NCBI GenBank assembly: GCA_016782445.1
Contig: JADHYM010000006.1
Coordinates: 1 to 45,990 of the forward strand
DNA length: 45,990 bases
Reading direction: 5' to 3'
From: Candidatus Omnitrophota bacterium
Lineage (GTDB): Bacteria; Omnitrophota; Gorgyraeia; JABMRN01; RBG-13-46-9
Shown here one piece after another: positions 1 to 26,923 of the stretch. The position numbers and the translations under genes are program-made. Every line of letters starts with the position of its first letter. Positions within the stretch are counted from its first letter, which is position 1. The notes under the pieces were generated by a model. That model did not search any database. It saw only the letters and a list, made by a program, of their open reading frames with translations, and was not told the origin of the DNA.

Positions 1-440
1 TCAGAGGCTTCTCCATCGTAGGTTAAGGTAGCTATGGGAGAGCCGGCTTTTTTATCGTAGGATACCGATTGCGTGCCCTTATAGGTGAAGTAGGTCTCAC
101 CTGCTTTAGTGGGCTTCGCAAGGGTCTTTGATGTAAGATTTGAGTTTTCATCAGAGGCTTCTCCATCGTAGGTTAAGGTAGCTATGGGAGAACCGTCTTT
201 TTTATCGTAGGAGACGGACGTTTTGCCTGAGTAGGTAAAGTACTGTTCGCCATCCTTGTTCGGCTCAAGAAGACGCTTTGAAAAAAGTACTGAATTTTCG
301 TCAAACGGGTCGCCTTTGTCTTTGTATCTGTAGTACGCGTTTTCGCTCGGGTTATTGGGGTCTACGACTTTTTTCATTACATCGCTTTCACGCTCCTCTA
401 TCTTGCCGTTGGCCCATTCGATGCTTTCAATAATGCCCTG
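1..440 (-). repeat. 150-bp tandem repeats encoding 50-residue units
   Basis: Bases 1-150 and 151-300 are two copies of one unit, starting identically (TCAGAGGCTTCTCC on the plus strand). A third, more divergent copy covers about 301-440. The unit is exactly 50 codons and in frame with the giant gene. It encodes DENSxLxSK, then YFTYxG, then SVSYDKK, then GSPIATLTYDG. The array continues beyond the window, so the copy number is unknown. The pattern is rich in aromatic and beta-forming residues, as in surface-protein repeats; I cannot assign it to a named family. Confidence 0.9.
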
Positions 441-3400
441 TTTGTAGTTTTCTTCATCTACAACAAGCGGTCCTTCCCGGAGATAATTAAACGTGTTGCC
501 TAAAACATCGGTTATGCTTTTTACGAGCATGTAATCACTGGAGCCTGGTTCCTTTGAGAAAAATTCTATCGTCTTTCCGCTTTCGAATACATCGTTAAGT
601 ATAGCGAGCATTTCTTCGAGCGTTTTTATTTCTTCTTTATCCGGCTTTTCCGCGCCTCGCGCCAAACGCAATGCCTTATTTAAGTTCATTTGCACAGTCA
701 GCAGTTTGCCAAACGGAGGATTTCCCTTTTCGCTGCGCGCTCTCGCAAGAAGCGCTTTGATTTCCTGCGCAAGCTCCTTTGTGGAAACTTCCTCTGCCTT
801 TACGGCTTTTGCCGCTTTTTCACTGGCCGCGAGCAGGCGGGGATCGATGCGCCTTTGTAAAAAAGCGCCCTTTATTGAGAGAAGTTTATCAAGTTTTTCG
901 ATTGCCTTTCTATATATCTCTTCGCCCGGCAGAATTTGTTTCAATCTTCCGTTCTCATCATATTTTCTTATTTCTATCGATTTCCCGCCGGGAATGGTAA
1001 GCGTCGTTTCGTCGAAGACGCCCCGGCAGGATTCTTTGGAAAGAATTTTTCCATTTTTATCTTCTGCTCCTCCGAGTTTTTTGCTGTAGCCGACATGCAC
1101 GACCTTATTTTTCTTATCGGGGCTGAACACGACGAGGGTATGGTACCTTGCATCCTGTAAAGCCCACGATTTAAGCTTTCCTTTTTCGTCGTAAATCGTC
1201 ACCCGCAATGCGCCGGAAGTTTTTATTGTCTTTCCGTTCGGGAGAAGTACTTCTTCCATTTTCTTGATCTTATTTTTACGTATTAAAGATGCGATTGCCT
1301 CGGTTTTATAAACGTCTTCTATTTTTAAATCTTCGATGACAATTTCGGTTTCGCCTTCCGAGTTTGTTGTTTCCGTTATTTTTATCCGCAGTTTCGCCAC
1401 GGCTGATTCGGCGTAACCTACGATAATAAAGCAATCCGCGTATCCGGCTAAATCTTTGTCAGGGCTTATTCTTAAAACCGCTTTTTTCTCCACAACTTCG
1501 CCATTTTTGCCGAGCTCACGTATTTCGATATCTTCGCTTTCCGCTTCCTGTCCGGTATCAGCGCTTAAGATAGTGCGGTACGTTCTTATAAAATCTATCT
1601 TTCCCCCATCCGTCGAAGGCGCGGCCCAGGAAATCGTTATGGTATCGCTTAAATTGCGCGGATTCGGAACGGAGATAACTTTCCCGCCGTTGGATCTCTT
1701 TATATTCTTTATACTCCAGTCGTTTCTTTCGCTTACATCGTCACCAGTGCGCCAATCCCTGTATTTCTGGTTGCCGAAACGCACCCTGTATTCCTGAAAG
1801 CCGTCCTTTTGTCCGCCCCGGGGAACAAGGCTTGTTTTTCCGGCAACAGGGTATTCCGCGGTAACTGCATTTTCTCTGTTAAAGTGTGTCACATTCTGCG
1901 TATAATCAGTTTCTTCTCCTTTTACAAGGCCCTCGGGGTACTCATAATCGCTGTATTTTCTGCCTGTAGCGTTTCCTTCTGCGTCAAACTCCGCTTCTTC
2001 TATTGTTTTCGGCCTGCAATACGTGATCATTTCTCCGTCCGGGGCCTTTTCTACCACCTGAACAATATCATGCGTCTGATATAAATAAACATTTCTCTGT
2101 CCTTCTCGAAGCGTGTAAATTTCTTTTTTCCAGGATGTTTCTTCGTGAAAGCCTCTTATTTTTCTCTGAGTCCATTGCGCAAGGCCTGTAATACCATCCC
2201 GCGCATGCTTTATTCCGGGCCAGTTCATGGGGTGGTTCTTTGAAAGCGCGTCGTAAAGCAGGTACCTGGCTTCCTTGAAAAAACTTGTTTCCTCCACAAG
2301 CTCCCTGTCCTCAGGCTGAACTACTTCGATCATTAATGCAAAGCCGTTTTCTCTCTCTTTAAGGCTCGCTGTCCGCATGACATAAATTGTTCCGTCCTTA
2401 TCCAGGCTAAACGCCGTGACAACCCTGCCGTCAGGATATCTTTCTGAGGGTTCATAAAATGTCGTGGTAGTGTGGCCCGCGCGTTCGCCTTTTTCGTCAA
2501 TCACTATATCGTGTATCTGAAAATAACCATTTTTTGAGTTTGAGACTACGTCCTCTGTAAGCGTTCGGTAATGCCTTATATATTTAGGGGAAGAGCCTAT
2601 TTTTTTATCTCCCGTAGAGCGCGCAAGCCTGTCATGTCTATTAATGAGGTACCACGCGAGCTGTTGCGGGGACCTAATGTGCGCTTTTTCTTGAGTAAGG
2701 GACTTATTCTCTCTTTCAATAGCTTCAAGTTCCCCTTCTTTCACTTTTATGCCACCGAGTATTTTATGAAATACATCGACTGAAATAGCTATATTATTTT
2801 GTATGATGCCTTCCTGCGTTTCGTGATCCGCGTTTTTGAATATATCGGAATCTATCGGAACGAAACTGTCCCATCGCCCGTGCGCGGCAAAAAGGACGCC
2901 GAGGTCGTCATCGCAGGTTACGGTTGATGAGGAAAGTACCTGATTCTCAAGGTCAACTTTCAGCATTTCAGTCGTATTCCTGTATCCGCCGGTGCCGTAA
3001 TGCGGCGCATAAGGCCTAACCCCTACCACGTTTACGCCGTTCATGTTCTTTAGCCTGTATCTTGTTGTTTCCTTTGTGAAAAGACCCCAGAAAAGATCGC
3101 TTCCAAGCCTTGCGGCATGAAAATGGCCTCCGGCAGGCCTGACAAAACTGGTAGCCTGTTTTGAAGCGCCTTCCGCGACCGCTAAGCCGGCTCGGGACCA
3201 GCCAATCCACTCATCAGACATGTGTTCAGCCGGATGCGGGGTGAATGTTTCTCCCGGTTGGAAATTTCTTAAACCTTCCAGATTTTCTACGGAACGCTTT
3301 GGACCGATTTTAACAAAGGCAATTCTGCCTTTTACCCCTTGTGTATTCATATTCTTCGGCAATATACCGAGTTCCACATTAAGCCCGTAAACAATACCGC

Positions 3401-6400
3401 CTATATCATCTGCCTCCAGCCATCCTGTTTCATCCGGCTCTAATTCCCACGTAGTGGTATCCTTTATGTATTGACCGCTTAAATTCATGCTTATGCTTCC
3501 GACTACAGATTCAGCGTCAAGACGAATATGCTCTCCTATTAAATTCCAGAGTTCTGTAATGTCGAGTTCGCCTGTAAAATACCTTACTCTCGTGCGCCCT
3601 TCTGTCACATGAGTTGCTTCCCATTCTGTATCTTCTCCCGGATGCCATTCCTCGCGCACTGTAAAATCACCGGTATTCGGATCTATCACTATTTGCGTCT
3701 CAGACCAGGGCCTACCAGGCGACCTTCCGGAATCTGTTTCGATCTTATAATATCTATCGAATTTATTACCCATGTTAGGTAAACTATGCACTTCCGGTAT
3801 GAGTTCACCTATTTTTCTCACTATATCCTTCGCCACATCAGAAGGTATCTTTACCGGTTTTTCGGCGATATAAAGCACGCCTCTTTCATCCTTGATACCT
3901 CTATAAGCGGCGGATGCGGTTTCTTGTTTTTTAATGGCTGCCGGAATATCTTTGACCCCCGCGTAATAGCCTCTCATCACGTTCTCCGGCCACTCTCTTT
4001 TATGAAGCTCAACAACGGAATCAGCCACATCCTCGGTGAGCCTTTCAAGCTCTTCTCTCTTAGCCCTTCTCTCGATTTCCTGTTTATTTAGCATTAGACA
4101 CTCTGTTTTCTTCTTTGAGGCGCCTTTATGATCTGGGTTTAAGTCGAGCGCCGTCTCAAAAGCTACAAGCGCAAGGTCATAAGAACCGTCGAAAAGCCGC
4201 ACGCAGCCGTCCGTGTAATACCGCTCTGCGGCCTCTTCCCATGCTGAAATATCTACCACATTGCCGGCCTCATCAAGGAAGGAAGCGTTGCGTTTTATGT
4301 CTTTATCAAAGAAACTTTTTTCAAGAACAATATCACCTTCATCAGACCTTAAAAGAGCGAATCTTTTCGTTATTGTGTATCTTCTTCCATTCGCGTCTCT
4401 GGCGTAATTGGCTGCATCGAGGGGTTCTTCTTCAAGCACGTCTTCTCTTGTGTATATAATTTCCTGTTCCTCTTTTTCATCTCCTGCAAACAGTTGCAGT
4501 CCGCACATTTGTGCCTCGATACCAGAGGCAATATGCATCTTTTTATCAGGCAGTAAGAATCTATCGTACCGTAGTTCGTAGCAGGCATAGACATCATAGA
4601 TATTACCTTTTATTTGCACCTGCGTGATTTTTCCAAATAAGCTTTTGTGCCCCGCCTGTATCATTGCATCTTCATCGCTGGAGGCACTAAACGCTGTCGG
4701 CTTCTCTGGTTTTACCGGCACTACTACTTCTTCAGGCACTACCAATGTTTCCGCTGTTTCAACTGGTTCGGTAGTTTTAACTGCTCCGGTTACTTCAGTA
4801 GCTCCAGCCTCTGCTTTTTCTTGTACAACTTCAGTTTCCATTCCCCCTATTTCCGCAAGAATCTCGTTTACGCTATCTGTTTTACCTTCAAGCGCGTCCT
4901 CAAACGCCATTTCAAGGTATGAGGTATCGGCTTCTCTGTATTTCAATGCATCAATGGCGCCCTTGGCAAGACTCCAGGCTTTTCCCTCTTCTGTCCAGGG
5001 GAATTTTATTTGTGTTTTACGGGCGAATACAGGTATCATCGCAGTCGCGGTTTGCCTTAATTCTTCTTCGGTCCCTGACTTATAATTTTTCTTGGCCTCG
5101 CGGTAAAGCTCTTCAAATGTCGGCTGGGCGGATACGCGCGCCGGTACGGCAACAACGGTTTCCGGTTTCGCGGACTCTGCTTTTTCAAGGGCTATGATGA
5201 TTGAGAGGCTATTTCGTGTTGTTCTGCTTAACGTGGTATCAGGCAATATCCTTCTCAGCTTCATCCAGTTATGTTGTTTTTTGTAATACCGTCCGCCTTG
5301 ATATAGGTATATAGCGCGCCCTTTAGAGTCAATTTCCAATAGTTCGGCGGGTTGTATACTCGCTGTGTCAATAAGCAGGGCGCTACCCTTTGTAATAAGT
5401 TCCTGCGCTTTATTCTGACCTAGAGAACGCTCTTTATCCAGTTCACTTCTGAACGATCCGTCATCAGAGAGCATGTATTTTATGCCGAAGTAATAGAGCA
5501 CGCTATTTGTGGAGAACGCCGGGGTTTCTTCGGTTATTCCGGCAACTTCGGGTTCGGTTTGTGCAATATCAAAAATATTTGTCGCGGCGGACACATCAAG
5601 TCCCTCAATAGAGGTGGCTTGAGAGCTTATGGTATCGAGTTGCGCTAAGAGCACGCTGTCAGAAGCGGCAAAAGAAGCTTCTCCTCCGGTAGGCGCCATA
5701 TCGCTATCGGGCGTTCCCTGGAACGAAGTATTTACTGTTACAGCGCCCAAGGCGGCCGGTAAAAGAAGAATCAAAGCCATCGCTGCGTATCCTAAACTAG
5801 CTAAGGCCGGCCTCTTGGCCGGCATTAATCTGGGCATCTCAAATCTCGCGAGCGATTCTTTAATGCGGCCCATACGGTAGCTGAACCCTCCCGTTATATT
5901 AGAATAGCCGTTAGTTCCGCGGAAAATCAAGCGCAAGGCAAGCAATATATTCTCGAACCTCTCCATGCCTCTTGCGCCAAGCAGCTCCCGTGTTTTTGCC
6001 GCGTCTATTGAGCCGTCTTTTGAGCGGGCCGGCTCCACGCCCATCACTTGCAGGATGCATTTATCGGTAAGTATTTCAAAAGTCCTCGCATTTTTCTCGA
6101 AATAAGCGTTTGCCCTGCTTGCCATCGATTCTCCCATCAATTTGAGGAATTGCGCGTATGTTTTACCCCAAACAGAATCGATGTCGATCTGCATAAAATG
6201 CATGAGGCCGGCAAAAGCCTCATAACCGCCCTGTTCTACGATTTCGGCGAAATATGAAGGGCTTACCGTTTCTTTTACAAGGTCATGATTTAAAGCCGCT
6301 GCGATTGCCATTTTCAAGGCTATACTGCTTTTTTTGTGCATCTTTCTTTCGCGCGAAAGAAGCAGGTTTACCCGATTCATTCCTTCTTTGGAAATTATCC

Positions 6401-9400
6401 CCTTTCTTTTCAGAGAATCAAATATAGCCGCTCCGTTTATTTTGCCGTCGTTATATAAAATAGCTTTGTACAGATATGAAGCATGTAAGATCTTATCCTC
6501 TAAAGTAGTTTCTCCGGGAAGGGGCGCTGCTATCATTTTGGCGTGGTTTTCTATGGCACTGCTTACAATCTCTCTTTTGGTAAGACGTATCGTTTGCTCG
6601 TCTACTACGCCTTTGCCGTTAAACCTGTATAAAAGCCTGCCTTTTTCGGCAAGAGTCTCGGCCCTGTAGAAAAGAAGGGAGGGTTTGATGGGTAAATTAA
6701 GCCGCAAAAGAATTTTTATTCTTTCTTCAAATTCTTCTTTGGATACATTTTTATTTGCGAGAATGCGCTTATAATACGATGGCGTAAGAAGCCCGGCAAG
6801 GTATTTACTCTCCATGCCAGCTTGTTTCAGCATTAAAAGCTTACCAATACAATCTACGAGCGCGTCTTTGAGAGCCGGATTATTCAAGGCATCGGAAAGG
6901 AGCCCGGGATTTTTGATAACTTCTAATATGCGGTCAAGATTATTGATAACCGTAAGTTCCTGCTTTATTTTTTCCGTGTTCCGACCGGATCGTATTGCGC
7001 GCTCATGCATGTCCGCAAAACGCGTTCTTTTCTCTGCTATTTTCGAACGAAGCGTTGCCTCTTGAGTTGTTAATCTATCGCCTAGTTCCCGCGCGAAAAA
7101 CTCCACATTGTGCTGGATAGCTCTTTTTTCTCTATACTCCCTTGAGGTTATCAAAAGATAAATGTCTTTTAAGAAATTCAGAAAAGTGGTTGTTCCTTTT
7201 TGGTATGTGCTTGTTTCACCTTCTGCCACGCCCTTGGAAACGCCATAATAGCCTGCGAGCGTGTTAAGTATGCCGTGCGATAAAATATCAAGAATCGCGA
7301 ACGCAACTAAAGGATGGATGTATAAAGAGCCTGCGGAGAGAAAAGTCGCTAAGGGGACCGCTAAAAACGCGAATCCGATACGGAAAGCAGGTATTGAGAG
7401 CGGCACGATTTCATGTTTTATTTCTTTGAGCGTAGGCGGAGCCCTCTTGGGCAATAATAAGTTAAGAACTGCTTTGTTTGCTTCCGGGTGATGTTTTATG
7501 AATAATATGCCTGCTATTCCGAGGCCCAAAAGCACTGGCCATGATGCAAGATTCAGGTTGAAAATCCACGCTGTGAGCATCACCGGAAAAGAATAACTAA
7601 TATATTCTATGAAAGGCACAAGGATATTTTCGAATCTGTTTTTCTCGCGAACTAACCGCTTTCCTTCTTCATTAAGATTTTGCGCCTCACGCCAGAAAAA
7701 CTCTTCCAATCCTTCAACTGGCTCGAGGCGTTCTATTTCGTTTATCACGTACGCCTGTACAGCGATTTCTTCGGCGAGCTTCTCATCTATTTCCACTCCC
7801 GAAATATCATTTTTTATGAACGTAACATGGGCCCCGAACGTTATGACGTAGCGGTACTTTCTAATATCCTCTTCGGGGGCTCGTGCTGTTTTCTCATCTA
7901 TGGTATCAAGTATTTTCAAATATAAAGCCCATTTCTCGCCTTTGTTCATGCGGACGTACTTTTCGCGAGCGGCATCGATCCACTGGGACCCTTTATGATT
8001 GAACATATAACGCGCGGGTAAGGTAATACTTTCGTCTTCTATTAAAAGTGCATTATCAAGGCTCCTGGCATGTTCTCTGCTTTTTTCCATTTCTCCCGTG
8101 TCGGGCTTTGTCTTTACCTTTTCCCAGAGCCAGCGCGAAATGGTTGAAACACCTTTTGAAGGTTTTTCTCCATATGTTTTTTCCAAGGAGGTTAATACTT
8201 TTGTTGCTTGTTTTTCTCGTTGCGCCTGGCGAGCATCTCTATCTTCTTTTTTTTGAGCTCTTCGCGTATTTCTCTCTCGAATAAAGCTACGAATCGTACG
8301 AAAACTCCATTTCATGAACCTCCTGAAGCCCCACAAAGCTGCCCCAATGATTGTTATCACCAAAATAACTCTTACAAAATAGGGGCTCCAATCAGTTGCT
8401 GTGAGAGATTCTGCTCTTCTGGCAAGCTCCTCTTCCGTGGGAATCGCCTGGCCTCTCGCTACAGTTGCAATGAGGGATATGCCGGATATAATAAGGGTTG
8501 TGAGCTTTCCTTTTTTTACGTGTTTTTTCCAAAAATCTGCGAGCTTTATAGGAACAAAGCCCACAAGTGTGACACCGGATATTACTTTGATAGCGGTCCA
8601 GAAACGCGACCAGTCTTTTACCAATTCGCCTTGCATATCCGGCGTTACAACAGCTTTCCACCAGCTTTGCATAAAAGCCGGAAAACCGCTCTTTAGGCTT
8701 ACCGCAAAGTTTTGTATTGACACAAATACTTCTTGCGCACCGGCAGGGTCGGGCTTGTACCATAAGAAATAAGCTAAAACGAATATCGCGGTCGCTATAC
8801 CTATAATATAGGGAAACATCGCAATCATTGACGCGCCTTCTTTCGGCCCCATGGGTTCTTCCGGGGTTTCGGGTATTTCTAATATTTTATCCGGCCTTTT
8901 CAGGCGCGTTGTTACTTCTCGCATTCTTTTTCTTCGGTTCATAATAGTTTTTACCATATCTGCTACACTATCATCGTTTATTTGGAAACCTCTTTTTTCA
9001 AGTTCAGCCTTAATAGCAGTCGATAACTCATTTTCGGGTATTGCCGGTTTGTTAAGGTCGCCCACAAGGCCATATATGATTTCTTCTTTTAATGCCTGTG
9101 TAAGAACAGCTGCTTCTTTTTGTGGTGTTTGCGGGAAACGCGCCCGTATGTCACGAAGAAGTTTTTCTCTTGTTTCATCGTTTTGTTGAATATCTTTCGA
9201 GATTATATCGTATCCTTTCGCTTGTGCTTTAGTTACGAAAATGGTTAAAATGGCTCGTATATTTTTCGCGTCGTGAGGATTTATGCCTTTTTCTTTTATT
9301 CTACCTACGGTAAGGTTGATAACTTCTTCTCTTATGCGAGCGCCATCGTCAGTGCCTTTTATTACATCCTCTGACTTTTTATCTTCTTCTTTTAATCTTT

Positions 9401-11582
9401 TTACTTCGGCGCCTTCTCTGCTATCTAAAGTCCTACTTACCCCTCTGCTTACCGGATAAAAATTCCATGTTCCATTATCGTCTTTCTCGAAAGCAAGCTG
9501 CACCTCTACTTCGCTATCTTTTACGTTCTGCACCACTATTATTTTCTTGCCTCCGAATCTCACGCTTTTAACTACAAATCCGGAGCCTTGGTTTTTCTTC
9601 AATTCAAAGGATGTTAATTTTTTATGATCCTCGCTAATCTTCATCGTTTTTATAGTATATCCGAGAAGTTCTGCGAATTGCTTAGGTGTTACCGGTACCT
9701 TGTATTCTCCCGTCCAGTTTTTTACTGCATCGGAATTTCTAAATACAAGCCAATCTTCCGTAAAAAGCCTTATCCAGTGCTTGGCTGTCTCTTCGACATT
9801 CATGTTTTTATCGTAAGTCTTACCGAGAGCGTAAAAAACAGATTCCCGGAGTTGAGTTTCATCTCCTGTGTAGAAATACGCCCGTACCGCTAATACATAG
9901 TCGCCTGCGGCAAGAAGCTCCTCATACGGCTGCTTCTTGTTAGTGAGTACCGCTATATAAGGCCTTTCCTCGCCTTCAGCGTACTTGGGCATAATAACAA
10001 GATACGATAAACCATCGGCCTTCATGATCTCTGCAAGCCCCTTAGAATGAAATCCTCCTGTTATAAGGGCGGCAACTTCCTCGTTATTTATTTTCATGGC
10101 CTTTATGGTATTCGCGATCATGGCGCTGTTACGCTCCTGGGCTATGTTATAAAAGTCTATGGCTTCGTCAAGGTTCCCGAATATGACATCTAGATCGTAA
10201 GCGCCCTCGAAAGCGAGCCTGTATTTTTTGTATGTCTTTGAGATAAATTCGGCGAGCATCGTGCGGTCAAAATAGCGTTTTTTTGAGATTATAAAATCGT
10301 GGTCATTATTGTTTAATGACACGGCGAAAAGCTTCTTCACGGTGCGCGCCATTCTCGTCAGGTTATAAAGCTCCCTTTCCTCGTCGTTTCTGAATATCTT
10401 TTCGCGTATGTAGTCCTCAAATTCGTCCACCTCGCGGAAAAGAGAAAGCAGGTCTATGTCCTCGTAAATCGTTATGTATTTTGTGAATTTTATAAGGTTC
10501 GGATAGGGCGCCGGAGAAACTTTTGCGTCTTCCGCGAGCCTTACCAGATATGAGTGAAAATTCGACTGCGAGATCTTTCCCATTTTGAAAGAAAGGCTTT
10601 CGAGAACAAGCTTCTCAAGCTCTCGCTTTGGAAGCGTTTTGGAAAGTTCGTCTATCAGGAGTTTTCGTTCGGCGTTTGCCTTGTCGAAATCTATTTCTTT
10701 CTCGAGTTTTATTGACTTAAGAAGCTTTGTGAGGTTCTCGAAAATGACGACTTCTATATTGTTTCTTTTCGCGAGCTTTTCTATAAAATCCCAGTGCGCG
10801 GTAAAGGCGAGCTTACCGTCTGTGTGGAGGACGGAATTCTGGTTAAGTTTCAAAAGGCTCCTTGAACAAACTTTTGATTCCAGCGCCTCGAGCGCGACAA
10901 TAAGGCCGTCTATATTCTCAATGCATTTGATCTTATTGTGGACAACGCGGTTAAAGGCCTCGATGTTGGCCTTGTAAAGGGCGTTATTTTCCACGCCGTA
11001 AAGCTTGACGGGTTTTTCGGATATTATGGAATAAAATTCTCCGGCAGACATCTTGCCCTTCCGCATGAGGTATTCGGCTGTCTCTTTTCGAATTTCGGCG
11101 TCAGGAAAGCTCTTGAGAAGGGATATGTCAACCGGGCCTTCCGCGCCCTCAAGCGCGATAAGATCAAGATCATAGTTTGCCGTTAAGTTCTCGAGGATTT
11201 TTACTATGGACTCCTGCGCGGCGAGAGAGGCGTGGGCATCCTGTATGTTTATTATGACTTCTTCGCCACCGTTTGAGAATACTTCCTGGGTCTGGCCGGC
11301 ATCGTAGGGTATCTGGATTCCGTTAAGGCGAGGCCTTCCGTTGATCGCGACTGCAGGTTTGGCACTACGCCATGCAAGGGGCTCACCGCCTTGAGCCCAT
11401 GTTATGTCGTATATAATAAAAGCAAATATTAATAAGACAGCTATAATTTTACAAGGACGGGTTGTACGAAATGTTGAGAGTGGCAGATTCGTGGTCGCAG
11501 GTTTAGTATTCATAGCCTGAAGCCTGAAACCTGAAACCTGAAACTCTTTAATATTACGTTTTTTTCGCTGCCAAGCTTTCAT
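1..11582 (-). CDS. giant multidomain membrane/exported protein, 3' end outside window
   Basis: One uninterrupted minus-strand frame runs from an ATG at 11582 to the window edge (3,860 codons, no stop). The start is preceded by AGAGG about 10 bases upstream. Residues 46-62 are a hydrophobic, signal-like segment ending WAQGG. Residues 107-150 contain IQDAH and ALEGAEG, and about 505-513 contain ITGGFHSKGL, which together resemble the TraB/ChaN (Tiki-like) fold. Four membrane-like segments lie at about 920-1090, a basic charged stretch at 1095-1135, another hydrophobic block at 1320-1455, and a second signal-like helix at about 1925-1943. A TPR-like unit lies at about 2455-2495, a fibronectin-III-like stretch at 3300-3420, and 50-residue repeats at the visible end. 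Function is unknown; a surface or periplasmic role is inferred. Giant genes are known in Omnitrophota. Confidence 0.9.
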   Translation of the reverse strand, partial: MKAWQRKKRNIKEFQVSGFRLQAMNTKPATTNLPLSTFRTTRPCKIIAVLLIFAFIIYDITWAQGGEPLAWRSAKPAVAINGRPRLNGIQIPYDAGQTQEVFSNGGEEVIINIQDAHASLAAQESIVKILENLTANYDLDLIALEGAEGPVDISLLKSFPDAEIRKETAEYLMRKGKMSAGEFYSIISEKPVKLYGVENNALYKANIEAFNRVVHNKIKCIENIDGLIVALEALESKVCSRSLLKLNQNSVLHTDGKLAFTAHWDFIEKLAKRNNIEVVIFENLTKLLKSIKLEKEIDFDKANAERKLLIDELSKTLPKRELEKLVLESLSFKMGKISQSNFHSYLVRLAEDAKVSPAPYPNLIKFTKYITIYEDIDLLSLFREVDEFEDYIREKIFRNDEERELYNLTRMARTVKKLFAVSLNNNDHDFIISKKRYFDRTMLAEFISKTYKKYRLAFEGAYDLDVIFGNLDEAIDFYNIAQERNSAMIANTIKAMKINNEEVAALITGGFHSKGLAEIMKADGLSYLVIMPKYAEGEERPYIAVLTNKKQPYEELLAAGDYVLAVRAYFYTGDETQLRESVFYALGKTYDKNMNVEETAKHWIRLFTEDWLVFRNSDAVKNWTGEYKVPVTPKQFAELLGYTIKTMKISEDHKKLTSFELKKNQGSGFVVKSVRFGGKKIIVVQNVKDSEVEVQLAFEKDDNGTWNFYPVSRGVSRTLDSREGAEVKRLKEEDKKSEDVIKGTDDGARIREEVINLTVGRIKEKGINPHDAKNIRAILTIFVTKAQAKGYDIISKDIQQNDETREKLLRDIRARFPQTPQKEAAVLTQALKEEIIYGLVGDLNKPAIPENELSTAIKAELEKRGFQINDDSVADMVKTIMNRRKRMREVTTRLKRPDKILEIPETPEEPMGPKEGASMIAMFPYIIGIATAIFVLAYFLWYKPDPAGAQEVFVSIQNFAVSLKSGFPAFMQSWWKAVVTPDMQGELVKDWSRFWTAIKVISGVTLVGFVPIKLADFWKKHVKKGKLTTLIISGISLIATVARGQAIPTEEELARRAESLTATDWSPYFVRVILVITIIGAALWGFRRFMKWSFRTIRSFIRERNTRRAQKKEDRDARQAQREKQATKVLTSLEKTYGEKPSKGVSTISRWLWEKVKTKPDTGEMEKSREHARSLDNALLIEDESITLPARYMFNHKGSQWIDAAREKYVRMNKGEKWALYLKILDTIDEKTARAPEEDIRKYRYVITFGAHVTFIKNDISGVEIDEKLAEEIAVQAYVINEIERLEPVEGLEEFFWREAQNLNEEGKRLVREKNRFENILVPFIEYISYSFPVMLTAWIFNLNLASWPVLLGLGIAGILFIKHHPEANKAVLNLLLPKRAPPTLKEIKHEIVPLSIPAFRIGFAFLAVPLATFLSAGSLYIHPLVAFAILDILSHGILNTLAGYYGVSKGVAEGETSTYQKGTTTFLNFLKDIYLLITSREYREKRAIQHNVEFFARELGDRLTTQEATLRSKIAEKRTRFADMHERAIRSGRNTEKIKQELTVINNLDRILEVIKNPGLLSDALNNPALKDALVDCIGKLLMLKQAGMESKYLAGLLTPSYYKRILANKNVSKEEFEERIKILLRLNLPIKPSLLFYRAETLAEKGRLLYRFNGKGVVDEQTIRLTKREIVSSAIENHAKMIAAPLPGETTLEDKILHASYLYKAILYNDGKINGAAIFDSLKRKGIISKEGMNRVNLLLSRERKMHKKSSIALKMAIAAALNHDLVKETVSPSYFAEIVEQGGYEAFAGLMHFMQIDIDSVWGKTYAQFLKLMGESMASRANAYFEKNARTFEILTDKCILQVMGVEPARSKDGSIDAAKTRELLGARGMERFENILLALRLIFRGTNGYSNITGGFSYRMGRIKESLARFEMPRLMPAKRPALASLGYAAMALILLLPAALGAVTVNTSFQGTPDSDMAPTGGEASFAASDSVLLAQLDTISSQATSIEGLDVSAATNIFDIAQTEPEVAGITEETPAFSTNSVLYYFGIKYMLSDDGSFRSELDKERSLGQNKAQELITKGSALLIDTASIQPAELLEIDSKGRAIYLYQGGRYYKKQHNWMKLRRILPDTTLSRTTRNSLSIIIALEKAESAKPETVVAVPARVSAQPTFEELYREAKKNYKSGTEEELRQTATAMIPVFARKTQIKFPWTEEGKAWSLAKGAIDALKYREADTSYLEMAFEDALEGKTDSVNEILAEIGGMETEVVQEKAEAGATEVTGAVKTTEPVETAETLVVPEEVVVPVKPEKPTAFSASSDEDAMIQAGHKSLFGKITQVQIKGNIYDVYACYELRYDRFLLPDKKMHIASGIEAQMCGLQLFAGDEKEEQEIIYTREDVLEEEPLDAANYARDANGRRYTITKRFALLRSDEGDIVLEKSFFDKDIKRNASFLDEAGNVVDISAWEEAAERYYTDGCVRLFDGSYDLALVAFETALDLNPDHKGASKKKTECLMLNKQEIERRAKREELERLTEDVADSVVELHKREWPENVMRGYYAGVKDIPAAIKKQETASAAYRGIKDERGVLYIAEKPVKIPSDVAKDIVRKIGELIPEVHSLPNMGNKFDRYYKIETDSGRSPGRPWSETQIVIDPNTGDFTVREEWHPGEDTEWEATHVTEGRTRVRYFTGELDITELWNLIGEHIRLDAESVVGSISMNLSGQYIKDTTTWELEPDETGWLEADDIGGIVYGLNVELGILPKNMNTQGVKGRIAFVKIGPKRSVENLEGLRNFQPGETFTPHPAEHMSDEWIGWSRAGLAVAEGASKQATSFVRPAGGHFHAARLGSDLFWGLFTKETTRYRLKNMNGVNVVGVRPYAPHYGTGGYRNTTEMLKVDLENQVLSSSTVTCDDDLGVLFAAHGRWDSFVPIDSDIFKNADHETQEGIIQNNIAISVDVFHKILGGIKVKEGELEAIERENKSLTQEKAHIRSPQQLAWYLINRHDRLARSTGDKKIGSSPKYIRHYRTLTEDVVSNSKNGYFQIHDIVIDEKGERAGHTTTTFYEPSERYPDGRVVTAFSLDKDGTIYVMRTASLKERENGFALMIEVVQPEDRELVEETSFFKEARYLLYDALSKNHPMNWPGIKHARDGITGLAQWTQRKIRGFHEETSWKKEIYTLREGQRNVYLYQTHDIVQVVEKAPDGEMITYCRPKTIEEAEFDAEGNATGRKYSDYEYPEGLVKGEETDYTQNVTHFNRENAVTAEYPVAGKTSLVPRGGQKDGFQEYRVRFGNQKYRDWRTGDDVSERNDWSIKNIKRSNGGKVISVPNPRNLSDTITISWAAPSTDGGKIDFIRTYRTILSADTGQEAESEDIEIRELGKNGEVVEKKAVLRISPDKDLAGYADCFIIVGYAESAVAKLRIKITETTNSEGETEIVIEDLKIEDVYKTEAIASLIRKNKIKKMEEVLLPNGKTIKTSGALRVTIYDEKGKLKSWALQDARYHTLVVFSPDKKNKVVHVGYSKKLGGAEDKNGKILSKESCRGVFDETTLTIPGGKSIEIRKYDENGRLKQILPGEEIYRKAIEKLDKLLSIKGAFLQRRIDPRLLAASEKAAKAVKAEEVSTKELAQEIKALLARARSEKGNPPFGKLLTVQMNLNKALRLARGAEKPDKEEIKTLEEMLAILNDVFESGKTIEFFSKEPGSSDYMLVKSITDVLGNTFNYLREGPLVVDEENYKQGIIESIEWANGKIEERESDVMKKVVDPNNPSENAYYRYKDKGDPFDENSVLFSKRLLEPNKDGEQYFTYSGKTSVSYDKKDGSPIATLTYDGEASDENSNLTSKTLAKPTKAGETYFTYKGTQSVSYDKKAGSPIATLTYDGEAS
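11516..11543. repeat. 7-bp tandem repeat (CCTGAAA x4) inside a coding region
   Basis: Four contiguous heptamers (one CCTGAAG, three CCTGAAA) lie within the N-terminal codons of the giant gene and are translated as the FQVSGFRLQ stretch before the signal-like segment. Seven is not a multiple of three, so copy-number change would shift the frame unless translation begins at the later ATG (11513). Confidence 0.85.
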
Positions 11583-11697: not shown

Positions 11698-11725
11698 AGT
11701 ATAGCATACTATATATAAGAGTCAA
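11698..11725 (-). promoter_or_regulatory. sigma70-like promoter for the giant gene
   Basis: TTGACT (11720-11725) and TATACT (11698-11703) are separated by 16 bases, reading leftward toward the giant gene. The predicted start near 11691 gives a leader of roughly 110 bases that contains the hairpin at 11637-11652. Confidence 0.6.
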
Positions 11726-11865: not shown

Positions 11866-14800
11866 TTATTGGAGTTTTCTCGTAATTGCAGTTTTTATAC
11901 TCTCAACTGTTGAGTATATCGCCGGAACCAAAAAAAGCGTCAAAGGCGTTGCGACTAGCATGCCGCCAATAACTGTTATTGCCAACGGCTTCCAGAGATT
12001 TGAGCCCTCTGAGGTATCAAGGGCCATAGGTAAAAGTCCCATAATCGTTGTCGCCGTGGTCATTATAACGGGCCGCAAGCGATCATTTGCAGCCTGCGCG
12101 ACTATCTGCGGGAGGTTTTTATTGGAGATGTGTAGAATATTTATATGATCCACCAGTATTATTCCGTTATTAACAACGATACCTGCCAGCATCATCATCC
12201 CTATGAGCGCGCCCATTCCTATGGATGTGCCCGTAATGAATAAAGCCAAAACCGCACCTATAGACGCCATGAGAACGGTCCCCATAATTATGAAAGGCTG
12301 GTAATACGATTCAAAAAGTGACGCTAAAACGATATATATAAGAATAAGTATTACCCATATGATAACGGCGAATTCTTTCTGCGTTTTGATCATAGTGGGA
12401 TAATTCCCCCCGAGTCTGTAGAAATAATTTTCCGGGAATTTAATGTCGTTTAAGGCCTCTTTTATCTGTTCTGCTGCTTTGCTTAACGGAATATCAGCGA
12501 TATTGGAGCTTACCTGTATCATGCGAGAACGGTCCTTTCTCCATATTTCACTGGGTCCCAGGCCGTATTTAAACTCCGCCACCTGATCCATGAGAACATT
12601 GTCACCTTCCAGAGAAATAAGCGCCAGCTTATGAACATCTTTAAAGGTCCTTCTATACTTTTCTTCAAGGCGCGCTATAGTTTCTACCTCCCGACCCTCC
12701 GTGTGAAAAAGCGTGGCCCTTAAGCCCCGCATCTGCGCGTGAACGTCAGTGGCTATGTCGCTTACGGTAAAATCAAACTGCGCTGCTTTCTTTTTATCTA
12801 TTTTAAGGCCAAGCTCCGGACGGCCTTCTCTCATGCGTATTTTCGTATCGCTGAATTTAGGAACTGATCCGAGCCGCGTTGCCATCGAAATGGCAAGTTC
12901 CCGCAAGACGTCATAGTCATAGCCAAACACGTCCAGGATTATTTCTTTTGTCCCTACTTCCTGCTGCTCCTCGAAATATATGAAAGCCGGTTTTATCCTG
13001 CCTACCTTGGGCCGGAGGCTCTCCATAACCTCGGCTACCGTGCGCTTCCTTTCAGCTATGGCCACGAGCTCCACGTAAACCTTGCTCGACCATGGCTCCA
13101 CAATAGCGGTAAATTTCTCCACCTCGGGCACTTCGTTCAAAAGTTTCTCGACCTGCTTTACGACCTTATCACTTACCTCGAGCTTGGCGCCGGTCGGCAT
13201 TTCAATAAAAACCGTAAACTTGTTTTGTTCGGTCGTTCCCAGGTATTCCTTGCCTATGCGTTTTGAGAGGATTAGCGTTCCGACAAATGCCACTATGACA
13301 AAAAGAAATATCCAGACCTTCTTCTTGAGGACAAATGCGATTATGGCTCGCTGGATATTATAAAGAGGGCTGAGGATCTCTGTTTTACCCTTTACGATAG
13401 CTACCCTCGATGAAAGAAGCGGCACAACCGTGAGAGCGACGAAGAGAGATACAATGAGAGAAAATGTCACTGTCCAGGCCACTCCGCTATAAAGAAGCCT
13501 CATCTCCTGTCCGACGAACATCATGGGTAAAAATACTATTATCGTGGTAAGCGTTGATGCTATGATTACAATGTTCATTTCCGTCGCGCCGAGAATAGCC
13601 GCTTTTTCAATTGGCTCGCCTTCTTCGTTTTTCTTCAGTATGTTCTCAAAAACAACGATTGAGTTGTCAACCAGCATTCCGACCCCAAGCGCCAGGCCGA
13701 ACATCGTAATATAGTTTATAGTGAGCGGCACCGCGCGCGTTAAAAACGCGTTTGAAAGCTCCATAAGGCCAAACGTTATGATTACGGATATGGGAATGGA
13801 AACCGCTACAATCATTATCGGCCGCAGGGATTTTTTGATCAAAAAAACTATCACGAAACCCAGAAGCAGTATGTAAACGAGCTTTGTAGGGACAAATAGT
13901 ATGCCCACAAGAAGGAGAAGCACGTAAATAGAGTGTTCTTTCTTTATCCTTCCGAGAAAAAATGCCAGGGTAAGCATAATGAGTATGGCGCCCTTAAGAA
14001 GCGAATCCTTCAGATTGTTTATTGACTTCTTTATGAAATCCGCCTGGTTACTTGTCTCCATAAGGTCGATATCCGGAGGTATGATACGCTTTATTTTTTC
14101 CACCTCTTTTGTGACGCCTTCTGCTATCTGTATCGTATTGCCGGTAGATTCCTTCTGAACCCTTAGCGAAACGATTGGCTTGACGTTGATCCTGGCATAT
14201 CCTTTAGGCTCAAGGTAAGAATCCCGCACCTGGGCTATATCCTCAAGCCTTACGATCGAGCCCTCGGGCGTGGTAGATATGACGGTTTTCTTTATATCGT
14301 CGACAGATTTAAACTCTCCTATTGTGCGTATGAGGTATTTATCCTTTACCCTATTTATCTCGCCGGATAAAAGGTTCAGATTATTTAACCCCAGAATATT
14401 TATAACTCTCTGAAGCGGGAGCGAGTATTTCACGAGTGCTCTTTGGTCAACTTCTACAAGAATTTTTCTTTCTCTTCCGCCCACAACCTCTATGTTGGCG
14501 ACACCCGTTACACGCTTCAACCTTTCCTTTATAATCTCGTCAACGACTTTCCTTATTTGCTCCGTTGTTTTGCGCTTACTTGTAGCCGCGAGAATAACTA
14601 TGGGGTAATCGGATTTTTTGAACTGCGCAATAATCGGTTTTTCTGCCTGCTCAGGAAGTTTGTTCCTCACCTTGGCAAATTTTTCCCTTACCTCAAGTGC
14701 CGCGAAATTCATATCTGTGCCCGGTTTAAAACTTAATACTATGGTAGCTTCACCCTCTTTTGAAATTGAAAGCATGGTTTCAAGATAACTTACCGTAAAT

Positions 14801-15015
14801 AGCGCCTCCTCGATGGGCTTGATGACCATCGATTCAACCTCTGTAGGCGGAATGCCGCCGCGTATATATATGATTATGCTTATTTCTCCGAGACTAACGT
14901 TCGGAGAAAGCTCGACAGGGAGCCGGGAAAGGGATATGAGGCCCACCAATATAAGGGCCAGGAACGCCATAGCCGTGGATATGGGCCTTGTTATGGCGAG
15001 TTTTGGTAAATTCAT
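11866..15015 (-). CDS. RND (HAE1-type) efflux transporter, second pump
   Basis: Inner-membrane proton-driven pump subunit of 1,049 residues, the usual RND size. It begins MNLPKLAITRPISTAMAF, the typical cytoplasmic start before TM1. The fourth-helix motif GVGMLVDNSIVVFEN carries the proton-relay Asp, and the tenth-helix region reads GIVVNNGIILVDHI. Residues about 357-392, between TM2 and TM3, hold an additional hydrophobic stretch (SIYVLLLLVGILFV, then LVYILLLGFVIVFLI), which would add two helices to the usual twelve. It overlaps the upstream RND gene by 4 bases (ATGA), so they are translationally coupled. The substrate cannot be deduced. A pair of different RND genes with one adaptor resembles MdtABC. 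Confidence 0.93.
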   Translation of the reverse strand: MNLPKLAITRPISTAMAFLALILVGLISLSRLPVELSPNVSLGEISIIIYIRGGIPPTEVESMVIKPIEEALFTVSYLETMLSISKEGEATIVLSFKPGTDMNFAALEVREKFAKVRNKLPEQAEKPIIAQFKKSDYPIVILAATSKRKTTEQIRKVVDEIIKERLKRVTGVANIEVVGGRERKILVEVDQRALVKYSLPLQRVINILGLNNLNLLSGEINRVKDKYLIRTIGEFKSVDDIKKTVISTTPEGSIVRLEDIAQVRDSYLEPKGYARINVKPIVSLRVQKESTGNTIQIAEGVTKEVEKIKRIIPPDIDLMETSNQADFIKKSINNLKDSLLKGAILIMLTLAFFLGRIKKEHSIYVLLLLVGILFVPTKLVYILLLGFVIVFLIKKSLRPIMIVAVSIPISVIITFGLMELSNAFLTRAVPLTINYITMFGLALGVGMLVDNSIVVFENILKKNEEGEPIEKAAILGATEMNIVIIASTLTTIIVFLPMMFVGQEMRLLYSGVAWTVTFSLIVSLFVALTVVPLLSSRVAIVKGKTEILSPLYNIQRAIIAFVLKKKVWIFLFVIVAFVGTLILSKRIGKEYLGTTEQNKFTVFIEMPTGAKLEVSDKVVKQVEKLLNEVPEVEKFTAIVEPWSSKVYVELVAIAERKRTVAEVMESLRPKVGRIKPAFIYFEEQQEVGTKEIILDVFGYDYDVLRELAISMATRLGSVPKFSDTKIRMREGRPELGLKIDKKKAAQFDFTVSDIATDVHAQMRGLRATLFHTEGREVETIARLEEKYRRTFKDVHKLALISLEGDNVLMDQVAEFKYGLGPSEIWRKDRSRMIQVSSNIADIPLSKAAEQIKEALNDIKFPENYFYRLGGNYPTMIKTQKEFAVIIWVILILIYIVLASLFESYYQPFIIMGTVLMASIGAVLALFITGTSIGMGALIGMMMLAGIVVNNGIILVDHINILHISNKNLPQIVAQAANDRLRPVIMTTATTIMGLLPMALDTSEGSNLWKPLAITVIGGMLVATPLTLFLVPAIYSTVESIKTAITRKLQ

Positions 15016-18000: not shown

Positions 18001-18128
18001 GGATAGGTTATCGGAGGAAAAAGTTCCTGGGGTAATTTACTTAAAGAGATAAAGCCAAAAAGCATTACCCCTAAAAATATCATGGACGTTGTTACCGGGC
18101 GCTTTATTGAAAACTGCGGCAGGTTCAT
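15012..18128 (-). CDS. RND (HAE1-type) efflux transporter, first pump
   Basis: RND pump subunit of 1,038 residues with the full two-fold layout: TM1 (TTSMIFLGVMLFGFISL), a large periplasmic loop, TM2-6, and a second half repeating this order. The proton-relay motif is GVGMLVDNAIVVLENISRH, and the C-terminal half has GGIVVNNGIVLIDFLN. There is no extra hydrophobic insertion here, unlike in the downstream paralogue. The start overlaps the adaptor stop by one base. It should work with the adjacent adaptor and TolC-like protein to span both membranes; the two RND proteins may form a mixed trimer, as in MdtBC (inference). Confidence 0.95.
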   Translation of the reverse strand: MNLPQFSIKRPVTTSMIFLGVMLFGFISLSKLPQELFPPITYPQLTVVTTYENAAPEEIETLITKPVEEAIGTVSGLRRLKSVSREGLSIVIAEFGWSQNMDFAALRMREKIDLIKERLPRESEEPIVMKYNPFELPIMTLSVTGDRSPEAVREISRRIIKEELEKLDGVASATISGGLEREIIVEVDQGRLRAQRVPLLTVSKSIADANLNYPAGTIKESFYEYLIRTLGEFERVEEIEEIPVRAEDDEERYKRPDEDETTIHDTRRLVFVKDVGEVYDTVKERTSFSRLNGEENISISIQKQAQSNTLLVVNGVKKALSYIREEVPKGINIEIVYDQSKFIKEAINGVRNAAIQGGILAFIVLLFFLRSVRSAVIVTFSMPISIIAVFTFMFMGKLSINMMSLGGLALGVGMLVDNAIVVLENISRHKESGEDEKTSSIKGASEVSNAITASTLTTVVVFFPMVFVIGIAGQLFKQLAFTIIFSLMASLFVALTLIPLLASMRHKEKKKSEKTQKTNVVLLKIYEKYLVKFLKNKKKGLLATLGLFLLSLLLFIPLDKELMPKVDQGQFIIKVDMPSGTRLEITDAAARKIESYLTGLPYVEKVTSIVGSTRGKDAQDVLQRLGSHQVEIRVSLKKRRRMKTPQAVQKIKKDLTKLNPEGARIDYILQESVFSAAVEEASPVVIEIKGENISALMKITEKVKEKIEKIKGIYGVKTDMPEPSPETKIFIDKNKAGIYNLSVFDIAQTAQIGLKGYIASELKEKGQEIDIRVRLRETDRDDFNKLNRIELHAPDGKILPLFSVARFGIGKGPSEIKRLDQERTILVSANIFKRALKDVTNDIQKAIKKLDIPSDYTVKLTGESEEMAESFNSLRFALIFSILLVYMIMAAQFESLWQPFIIMMAVPLSVIGVLLGLFVTGTSVNVVALLGLIMLGGIVVNNGIVLIDFLNILRARGVATYEAVLEASKARLRPILMTALTTILGLFPMAMAIGEGSELRSPLAISVIGGLFISTFLTLFVIPAIYLLVEESNIFKKR

Positions 18129-19387
18129 TAAAATATCGTCTCCTGCACCTCTGTTATTTCCACCCTGTCCTTATCGCTAAACTCCTGAAAAACGTCAACG
18201 ATTATAAGTTCGCCTTCCTCGAGGCCTTCTGATATTTCGGCCGCATCCTGGGTAAGATACGCTATTTTTATTTTACGCACCTCGACCGCTCCTTGCTCGA
18301 GCACCGGTTCTTTTTCTCCTTTTTTCTTTCTTTCCTTTTCATCCGGCTCAATCGGGTGAACCACGTAGACAAAGTATTCGTTTTCTTTTTTCTTAAAGGC
18401 CGAGGTAGGTATAATAAGCGCACTATCGTTCTCGTAGGTGGCAATAAGGGTCCTCGTAAACATCCCGGGTTTTAAATTGAATTCTTTATTTTTGAGCTCT
18501 ATCTTTATATTCTGGGTCCTGGTCTTTCCCTCTATTATCGGTGATATGGAGTCGATCGTTCCCGTAAACGATTCCGTGGGAAATGCGTCAACGTATATCT
18601 CTGTTTTCTGGCCGAGTTTAAGTTTCGGCGCGTCGCGCTCTATTATGTCGAATTCAGCGTAAACGTTGCCTATTTCGATAAAAGTGCCTATTTTAACGTT
18701 CTCGTTCGCATTTATATACGTCCCGACGTCAATATCCCGGCTTCCGAGTATCCCGTCAGCTATTGCGTAAATGTTTGTTTTTTCAAAGTCGCTTTTTGCG
18801 GACTCGTATTCGAGTTTAGTTTGTTCCAGTTTTATTTTATCTATGCCGCCCGCATCAAAAAGTCTTTGGTTTTTGTTAAGCTCGAGCTCCGCGTATTTAA
18901 GCTTAAGGAGCGCGTCCTTCTGGTTCAGATTTGCTATTATGTCGCCTTCCTGAATGCGTTCGCCTTCCTCGAAATTGAAACTTTCCAAAATTCCGCTTGT
19001 CTCAAATTTAAGGCCAATCTCTTTGAACCCCTTTATAGTGCCCATAGCAGGAAGCGTATCCTTAAACGCCATTTTTTTGATCTTATAGACCTTTACGGGC
19101 ACTGCCTCACCTATGAGTTCAAGTTCCGCCTGCTTTTTCGCTTCCCGCGCGAAAAGAACATTGTGTATCGTGCCGATGGTCCGGGCAAGTATAAGTCCCG
19201 CTACTACGATTACAACGAGGGTTATTATATAATTTTTCTTGGGCTCGCCCGATTTAATCCCTTCTTTTATTTCCTTGTAAATTACTTTACCTTTTTCGAA
19301 AAGATTTTCTGCGGTTTTTTTAAGATCTTTTTCGAGTTCGCCTGTTTTTATTTTCTTTTGTAATTTTTTAAAATCGATTTTTTTCAT
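18128..19387 (-). CDS. RND membrane-fusion (periplasmic adaptor) protein
   Basis: 419 residues. A Lys/Glu-rich N-terminal segment of about 50 residues precedes one membrane helix (NYIITLVVIVVAGLILA, about 52-70). After it come the barrel-sandwich (lipoyl-like) halves, at about 110-160 (FETSGILESFNFEEGERIQEGD) and again after a short alpha-hairpin (LKYAELELNKNQRLFDAGG), then a beta-barrel (IERDAPKLKLGQKTEIY) and a membrane-proximal domain. The long charged cytoplasmic extension is unusual for this family. A charged insert (PDEKERKKKGEKEP) sits near the C-terminus. It lies between the TolC-like gene (28 bases upstream) and the first RND gene (1-base overlap), as expected for a tripartite pump. 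Confidence 0.92.
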   Translation of the reverse strand: MKKIDFKKLQKKIKTGELEKDLKKTAENLFEKGKVIYKEIKEGIKSGEPKKNYIITLVVIVVAGLILARTIGTIHNVLFAREAKKQAELELIGEAVPVKVYKIKKMAFKDTLPAMGTIKGFKEIGLKFETSGILESFNFEEGERIQEGDIIANLNQKDALLKLKYAELELNKNQRLFDAGGIDKIKLEQTKLEYESAKSDFEKTNIYAIADGILGSRDIDVGTYINANENVKIGTFIEIGNVYAEFDIIERDAPKLKLGQKTEIYVDAFPTESFTGTIDSISPIIEGKTRTQNIKIELKNKEFNLKPGMFTRTLIATYENDSALIIPTSAFKKKENEYFVYVVHPIEPDEKERKKKGEKEPVLEQGAVEVRKIKIAYLTQDAAEISEGLEEGELIIVDVFQEFSDKDRVEITEVQETIF

Positions 19388-23937: not shown

Positions 23938-23944
23938 AGAAAAG

Positions 23945-24019
23945 CAGCCCCACGGGGATTCGAACCCCGGTCTTCAGAATGAGAATCTGATGTCCTAGGC
24001 CGGGCTAGACGATGGGGCC
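23945..24019 (-). tRNA. tRNA-Glu (CTC)
   Basis: A complete cloverleaf: acceptor GGCCCCA pairs with TGGGGCT (one terminal G-U pair), D-arm GTC...GAC, anticodon stem TCAGA/TCTGA with loop TTCTCAT (anticodon CTC, codon GAG), and T-arm CGGGG-TTCGAAT-CCCCG with discriminator G. No CCA is encoded; the sequence continues C then T-run. tRNA-Gln and tRNA-Leu nearby, and the tRNA-Glu remnant at 23512, do encode CCA. The 5' end lies inside the 3' end of GIY-YIG copy 2. Confidence 0.95.
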
Positions 24020-24261
24020 ATGTTATTTACTAATCTTTTAAATACTCTATTTCCTTTATAGCTCTTTATTTCTTTTTCTCTTGTAGCCGCTTCGTGTTTT
24101 GTCGAGAATTCTTCTTTATATACAATAAAATACGGACCTTTATTCCTGGTTGAGCGTGTGTGGTTGCCATTATGTTGCCGTATCCTTCTTTCTATATCTT
24201 TAGTGTTTCCAATATAAAAACTGCCTGTTTTTTGGCTTTTCATTATATAAGTACAATACAT
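23995..24261 (-). CDS. small GIY-YIG nuclease domain protein, copy 2, overlapping tRNA-Glu
   Basis: 88 residues: MYCTYIMKSQ, then SFYIGNTKDIERRIRQHNGN (the GIY-YIG core is modified to FYIGN), the Arg helix and Glu-containing AATREKEIKSYKG. The last eight codons and the TAG stop are formed by the 5' part of the intact tRNA-Glu gene, an overlap of 25 bases, so gene and tRNA share sequence. It begins 20 bases from the point where the broken tRNA-Glu copy ends. Differences from copies 1 and 3 show these are not recent duplicates of each other. Confidence 0.8.
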   Translation of the reverse strand: MYCTYIMKSQKTGSFYIGNTKDIERRIRQHNGNHTRSTRNKGPYFIVYKEEFSTKHEAATREKEIKSYKGNRVFKRLVNNMAPSSSPA

Positions 24262-24299
24262 AATATTTCTTTAATCGCTAAACCCCGGTCTTCAGAATG

Positions 24300-24355
24300 C
24301 CCCGCCGCCCCGCTTCGCGGGGGCGGGGTCCCGCCATACGTAAGTAACGGCGGGA
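24300..24355. repeat. palindromic insertion in the tRNA-Glu anticodon
   Basis: It holds two GC-rich hairpins: CCCCGC-family arms around GAA, and, on the minus strand, TCCCGCCGTTACTTACGT followed by ATGGCGGGA, a 7-bp stem. The second hairpin recurs in the D-arm insertion. Confidence 0.8.
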
Positions 24356-24381
24356 AGAATCTGATGTCCTAGGCCGGGCTA

Positions 24382-24454
24382 CCCCGTCGTAACCTCTGCC
24401 TGCTTTCAGCAGGCAAGTATGACGGGGCCCCGCCACACGTAAGTTGCGGCGGGG
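24382..24454. repeat. palindromic insertion in the tRNA-Glu D-arm
   Basis: On the minus strand a hairpin CCCGCC-GCAACTTACGTGT-GGCGGG is followed by a hairpin with CCCCGTC/GACGGGG and an inner GCCTGC/GCAGGC stem. The first is the same repeat as in the anticodon insertion (shared ACTTACGT loop core and CCCGCC/GGCGGG stem). Confidence 0.8.
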
Positions 24455-24465
24455 GACGATGGGGC

Positions 24466-24540
24466 CAAATTTGCGAAGCAAATTTGATACTGAGGAAGTC
24501 TTATGAATCCGACCCACGGGAGGATTCATGACTTCCGAGG
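24466..24540. repeat. two hairpins between tRNA fragment and GIY-YIG copy 3
   Basis: AAATTTGC-GAA-GCAAATTT is a perfect 8-bp hairpin at 24468-24486. Next to it GGAAGTC...ATGAATCC pairs with GGATTCAT...GACTTCC (about 24494-24538). The second follows the stop of GIY-YIG copy 3 and might end its transcript. The full gap 24262-24544 holds no protein gene. Confidence 0.65.
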
Positions 24541-24544
24541 TACC

Positions 24545-24805: not shown

Positions 24806-24886
24806 GCAAAGGTCCTTCGAAAATGGCAAACGCTCCTCTAAGTCGCGTTTTCTTCATTTTTCTCAGGATTAAATTTTTTCAAAATT

Positions 24887-26758: not shown

Positions 26759-26776
26759 GAGTATTTTGGTTTGGTT

Positions 26777-26921: not shown

Positions 26922-26923
26922 AA

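Follow-up and report, generated by a model that had tools for sequence, protein, structure and literature searches.

A giant open reading frame at the end of a contig

The window analysed here is a 45,990-nucleotide stretch of contig JADHYM010000006.1 (C27) from a Candidatus Omnitrophota bacterium. It corresponds to the left end of that contig, in an assembly of 1.0 Mb in 37 contigs that is 86% complete. Positions 3-11582 on the minus strand hold a giant ORF, which starts at an ATG, shows 3860 codons and is still open where the contig ends. A first-pass annotation had proposed a single gene of more than 3,860 codons at this position, and a check for frameshifts or stops that would split it into separate genes found none. 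Given the base composition of the coding strand, the probability of meeting no stop in 3860 codons is ~1e-103. The remaining five frames over the ORF contain 109-278 stops each, with a longest open run of 184 codons, and GC content shows codon-position periodicity over its full length. A chance ORF or a frameshift is excluded for window positions 3-11582, and we are practically certain that the ORF is one real gene.

The start codon is preceded by a likely ribosome-binding site (GAGGT) and, further upstream on the same strand, by a sigma-70-like promoter with an extended -10 element (TTGACT-16-TATACT, 11698-11725). A terminator-like hairpin is located between promoter and start codon (11652-11637, minus strand). 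Attenuation in the leader was considered and rejected, since a hairpin was found at just 3 of the 71 loci that carry the N-terminal domain described below (the head). Directly upstream of the giant gene, on the same strand, lies a gene for an AcrB-type RND pump (11866-15015), in a cluster that also includes a gene for a HlyD/CusB-type membrane-fusion protein (18128-19387, minus strand). Of the 58 head loci whose flank is long enough to tell, 15 have the RND gene as their immediate upstream neighbour, which makes the association a feature of one branch of heads and not of heads in general.

Elsewhere in the window are three tRNA genes (23944-26997) and a match to 6S RNA (40512-40672, minus strand; 48.4 bits against an Rfam gathering threshold of 46.4). 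At the other contig end, a further long frame (P0002, 41441-45988, minus strand) shows 1515 codons and is open at its 5' side. It contains a GNAT acetyltransferase domain above the Pfam cut-off and a 20-residue element, FGPHSAGAAELPPGTEPKMDY, that is present twice; visual inspection also suggests a TAT-like signal and another stretch of the form H..E..GTAH. Comparison of P0002 with the head proteins gave no match, and no relation between them was found.

Architecture of the encoded protein

All features of the giant protein are encoded on the minus strand. Its N-terminus resembles a signal peptide (11385-11477), with a basic stretch, a hydrophobic core (aa 44-62) and a cleavage-like site between TWA and QG, which bears out what had been noticed at first sight. 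The head domain follows (9843-11384; aa 67-580, modelled from residue 58) and consists of a probable TIKI/TraB/ChaN-like core that is interrupted by a long stretch of helices. Behind it, the groups of membrane segments that had been described were found again: besides the N-terminal segment there are seven more, arranged as three segments at aa 919-1086 (8325-8828), three at aa 1344-1443 (7254-7553) and a single hydrophobic stretch at aa 1932-1950 (5733-5789) that is membrane-like or an internal signal-like segment.

Two other modules of the first-pass annotation did not hold up. The TPR-like unit is a single sub-threshold match at aa 2456-2485 (4128-4217; 21.1 bits, cut-off 27.8), and the proposed fibronectin-III-like stretch is without profile support, as fn3 gave no match to the giant ORF in Pfam or NCBIfam searches. 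Hardly any domain can be recognised in the middle of the tail, Pfam matches are nearly absent, and a single-sequence fold of residues 3170-3600 was uninformative (pLDDT 34). The C-terminal repeats, in contrast to these two claims, were confirmed as a tandem repeat with a 150-base unit at window 1-281 (about 50 aa, beta-rich and YD-like in appearance), and this is the point where the contig breaks off. Searches with RHS/YD repeat profiles of Pfam and NCBIfam gave no match in the C-terminal 470 aa or in the ORF on C17, another contig of the same genome. Intein and MORN matches at the C-terminus of the giant ORF fell far under their cut-offs and were discarded.

The gene probably continues on a contig in another bin

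Window positions 1-139 overlap exactly with the end of contig G003:C14 (L157), which has been assigned to a different MAG from the same family: in coding orientation, the last 139 bases of the giant gene are the first 139 of that contig. G003:C14 is 8470 bases long and open throughout (2822 codons), and its open frame (offset 2) is in phase with the giant gene, so that the reading frame is continuous across the overlap. In tetranucleotide composition it is closer to the contig of the window than to the bin in which it was placed (0.65 and 0.62 versus 0.52 and 0.49), and the same holds for codon usage (0.95 versus 0.85). Compositional fit and overlap suggest that G003:C14 is probably a mis-binned continuation of the giant gene, and contigs bearing giant genes may be systematically mis-binned in this way. 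The complete length, which had been left undecided, is thereby extended from 11.58 kb in the window to about 19.9 kb, or (11582 + 8470 - 139)/3 = about 6,637 codons, with the end of the frame still unreached; this figure is a minimum for the joined gene, to which the copy number of the repeat could add more. We consider a gene of at least 6,600 codons very likely, although the join depends on an overlap that lies within the repeat.

Repeats related to the terminal unit also open G003:C14 and C17. The C17 ORF (C17:2-4825, 1607 codons, 5'-open) was rejected as the direct continuation, since its repeats are just 45-48% identical and there is no overlap; it may be a later part of the giant gene or a separate gene. 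The G003:C14 frame encodes a GT2 glycosyltransferase domain at its residues 2067-2219, above the Pfam cut-off (PF13632), with the motifs TEDAD and QRSRW and a position between membrane segments. In all of these respects the domain is like BcsA-like GT2 synthases, from which it differs in being embedded in a giant chain instead of standing alone. The same frame also contains a HELGH motif. In total, 8 hydrophobic segments were counted in the window part of the giant protein and 14 in G003:C14.

A conserved head with a probable TIKI-like core

An alignment of 27 heads revealed invariant residues at D115, H117, E145, G146, G196, Y369, F477, Y478, R484, G509, G510 and H512 (numbered as in the window protein). 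They include the invariant positions of three motifs, IQDAH (aa 113-117; 11232-11246), LEGAEG (aa 144-149; 11136-11153) and, from the head alignments, GGFH (aa 509-512; 10047-10058), with Arg484 (10131-10133) in the slot that the TraB/GumN arginine occupies in the motif order. D115, H117, E145, R484 and H512 were present in 27/27 heads and also in 76/76 heads of a second set, in which the invariance of H512 is partly by construction because the contig search pattern included GG[FY]H; the 27 heads came from a search without that pattern. An AlphaFold2 model of the head (mean pLDDT 84) placed strands around the motifs and, between the two halves of the core, a long all-helical insertion (about aa 200-465; 10188-10985).

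A hydrophobic N-terminal core was found in 70 of 74 heads and a small-x-A motif in 68 of 74, typically ending in WA before a Q. On these features we predict, with high confidence, that the head is exported.

The order of the conserved residues (H, E, R, GxxH) and their similar spacing parallel TraB/GumN: from H to E there are 28 residues in the head and 26 in TraB/GumN, and from R to the final H 28 in the head and 26 in TraB. Direct TraB/GumN and ChaN profiles found no match in the window's own genome, and no Pfam match to the head lay above the cut-off. Weak ChaN profile matches were obtained for 5 of the 27 heads (best E 0.02), and three ChaN matches from a six-frame search landed on heads. 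Profile-profile alignment of the head with TraB/GumN using hhalign brought R and the last H into register at an E-value of about 0.013-0.019 and a probability of about 3%; controls with one side reversed were weaker (E 0.27-0.48). When the helical insertion was removed, the alignment of the head core found nothing among PDB sequences; EF-hand-like PDB matches to the insertion were set aside as helix matches. A Foldseek search with the head gave no match with E below 0.001. Its highest probability, 0.80, was for HopBA1, which we take to be a TIKI-like protein, followed by the EreA-like structures 2rad (0.41) and 3b55 (0.35). Since no profile or fold match is statistically solid, membership of the TIKI superfamily (TraB/GumN, ChaN, EreA) is probable and not proven. 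The TraB/ChaN-like domain named in the first-pass annotation is likewise probable on the motif alignment, the model and the weak Foldseek and ChaN matches.

Judging from its D-x-H, E, R and G-G-x-H residues, the head would be a metal-dependent hydrolase or peptidase that works outside the cytoplasm. We lean slightly towards predicting that the head is an enzyme.

The head starts giant genes across the phylum

Residues 1-861 of the window protein found matches in 39 of 59 relatives. In a scan of genome contigs, 78 of 78 named head loci belonged to Omnitrophota, these 78 being the loci kept out of 546 confirmed relatives; the nearest, JAUWBJ010000007 (G001), comes from the same family as the window organism. 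When genomes were drawn evenly across the phylum, heads were present in 85 of 145, at up to 18 copies each. The ORFs that bear them range from about 390 to 35,113 codons, with at least 24 above 5000 codons among the ORFs listed, and in relatives from other assemblies the same head sits on frames that stay open for 9518-35,113 codons. Heads also occur on their own, as proteins of about 500-650 residues. The head is N-terminal in all four giants that were checked (35,113, 23,964, 16,199 and 11,896 codons), and at contig loci with an uncut 5' end it begins within 86 codons of the upstream stop.

The window's genome encodes a second head protein on contig C22 (L039, 7527-12341), of 1605 codons and with a weak C-terminal GNAT-like match, whose head is 28% identical to that of the window protein. 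One contig from a viral collection, IMGVR_UViG_3300045144_000334 (L135), also encodes a sequence related to the head core, with 36% identity over about 105 residues; this contig may come from Omnitrophota and have been wrongly classified. Towards the 3' end of the 35,113-codon ORF (G094:C37, 78001-82000; L162), all three coding-strand frames are open for ~700 codons, which suggests highly repetitive sequence.

Tails diverge far faster than heads

Behind the head, residues 581-3033 gave just two short matches in 20 relatives, and residues 2895-3860 found only repeat matches in relatives. In 12 pairs of proteins with 70-79% head identity, mean tail coverage was 10%. The window protein and G001 show this at the same locus: their heads are 74% identical and their upstream pump genes are 74% identical, and no tail match was found, the G001 giant ORF reaching at least 9518 codons (28.6 kb, open at the contig end). 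In G007, which has been placed in the genus of G001, the gene behind a pump that is 74% identical to the window's has just 1148 codons.

Where tails align, their dN exceeds that of heads by a factor of about 4-6, as estimated from forced global alignments of diverged sequence in which synonymous sites were saturated in 3 of 4 pairs. In the closest pair, omega was 0.53 for the tail and 0.19 for the head, suggesting that tails are translated and under a loose constraint. Only 1 of 120 tail matches exceeded the head identity of its pair, and 75 of 120 were shifted by more than 300 residues. Matches that are seldom above head identity and often displaced suggest fast divergence with insertions and deletions and not the exchange of cassettes.

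Domains recognised in the tails of relatives include SecA-like ATPase, glycoamylase/DUF3131, peptidoglycan-binding, outer-membrane efflux (OEP), M23, YkuD and phosphomannomutase-like domains. The SecA-like DEAD and P-loop domains are inside two giant tails, adjoining cell-wall enzymes (G038:C89, L040 and L041; G024:C41, L042 and L043); a domain resembling a preprotein motor is unusual within a giant envelope protein.

The order of elements in the window protein had been read as a fusion of several membrane and exported modules. What stands of this is one gene that combines a predicted exported N-terminus, a probable TraB/ChaN-like domain, membrane groups and repeats. A one-off fusion of several known modules is not the best description of it; the protein is rather a phylum-wide head joined to a nearly lineage-private tail.

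Discussion

The reading that we favour, and hold to be reasonably likely, is that the window gene encodes a giant multi-pass cell-envelope protein with a constant head and a variable tail, in which the head is exported and probably hydrolytic. A Sec-type signal peptide would export the conserved, probably TIKI/TraB/ChaN-like head, which would act as a metal-dependent hydrolase or peptidase outside the cytoplasm. The membrane segments behind it would carry a very long, fast-evolving tail. In the window protein this tail would consist of beta repeats followed by what is very probably a membrane-embedded GT2 glycosyltransferase for glycan synthesis; in relatives it would contain SecA-like ATPase, peptidoglycan-acting or other envelope modules. 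The head most likely does one job for every giant, perhaps by processing the exported chain or guarding it, and lineage-specific surface functions would come from the tail. That the head processes or guards giants is a guess made because of its conserved position before unrelated tails, and we regard an action of the head on the giants themselves as rather doubtful. A bolder version, in which an exported and probably hydrolytic head starts most giants of the phylum, acts on them and frees their tails to diverge almost without limit, seems to us improbable.

Several other explanations were weighed. The protein could be a giant surface adhesin or predation protein, exported in its entirety to bind or break down the surfaces of other cells, with the head as a mere exported cap. 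Such a role has been proposed for Omnitrophota giants, some of which have adhesion domains, and peptides were raised in attached cells of V. archaeovorus (PMC10066038). The weak 3-keto-disaccharide-hydrolase-like match and the repeats on C17 would also fit. However, no adhesion domain above threshold was found in the window chain, a GT2 synthase lies between membrane segments in the probable continuation, and relatives have SecA-like ATPase domains. GT2 synthases and SecA-like ATPases normally need cytoplasmic substrates. We see this as a serious possibility, though one that falls short of even. A head that works as a ligand- or haem-binding receptor like ChaN, without catalysis, would account for the fact that the weak Pfam matches are to ChaN and Cofac_haem_bdg, but the charged set of D, H, E, R and H that occurs in every head examined goes beyond what a haem ligand needs, making this rather unlikely. 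It is unlikely, too, that the head is unrelated to TIKI/TraB/ChaN and has a separate fold with a convergent order of motifs. No significant profile or fold match contradicts that idea, yet the motif order is shared, the spacing is similar, the strand-helix plan around the motifs matches, and the sole high-probability Foldseek match is the TIKI-like HopBA1.

Polymorphic toxin systems combine a constant N-terminal part with a variable C-terminal part, and the giants could be such a system, with a constant head for delivery and tails that are swapped as effector cassettes. The constant N-terminus would be expected of it, as would C-terminal parts that cannot be aligned even where the genes share a locus and the pump gene ahead of them. 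The tails, however, are thousands of residues long and contain membrane segments, and the single tail match in 120 above head identity gives no sign of recent exchange, so that we judge this very unlikely. An artefact of assembly or frameshifting that joined or split separate genes might be suspected from a contig that ends in a tandem repeat and a continuation that lies in another bin. As the origin of the frame at 3-11582 it is largely ruled out by the chance openness of ~1e-103, and the long open frames with the same head in other assemblies also speak against it; overall we give it hardly any weight.

Giant ORFs are common in Omnitrophota, with one of 39,678 aa in Ca. Velamenicoccus archaeovorus, and they are described as poorly conserved, with few annotated domains (Seymour et al. 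2023, PMC10066038). Giant genes of up to about 85,800 aa are attributed to Omnitrophota, Elusimicrobia and CG03 in work cited in PMC12057145 (reference 20). The giant size of the window gene is not new, because giant genes were already known in the phylum. It shares with the giants of Seymour et al. a very long single ORF, membrane segments, few domains and a poorly conserved body, and with the 85,800-aa giants, as far as they are described in PMC12057145, the kind of gene, membrane helices and carbohydrate-acting domains. TraB is absent from the text of PMC10066038, whereas here a conserved head, predicted to be exported, starts many such ORFs, and the difference in divergence between head and tail is quantified. 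A literature search, outside which the original 85,800-aa report and the V. archaeovorus LiM paper lay, found no link between Omnitrophota giants and a TraB/ChaN-like head.

Compared with TraB/GumN (PF01963) and ChaN (PF04187), the head has the same order of H, E, R and GxxH and the same strand-helix plan of the core. It differs in having QDxH and not GxxH as motif 1, a helical insertion of about 265 residues, a giant tail, and no profile match above cut-off. The giants differ from polymorphic toxins in a variable part that is thousands of residues long and membrane-spanning, with no sign of cassette exchange.

ORF length alone under-describes giants, because contigs break in repeats and pieces can fall into other bins. 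The function of these proteins has so far been hard to approach, given their few annotated domains and poor conservation (PMC10066038). A conserved head of roughly 520 residues with invariant catalytic-type residues is a tractable handle that can be expressed and assayed, and as a search probe it retrieves giants that range from 10,000 to 35,113 codons. The contrast between head and tail is, in addition, a measurable evolutionary rule.
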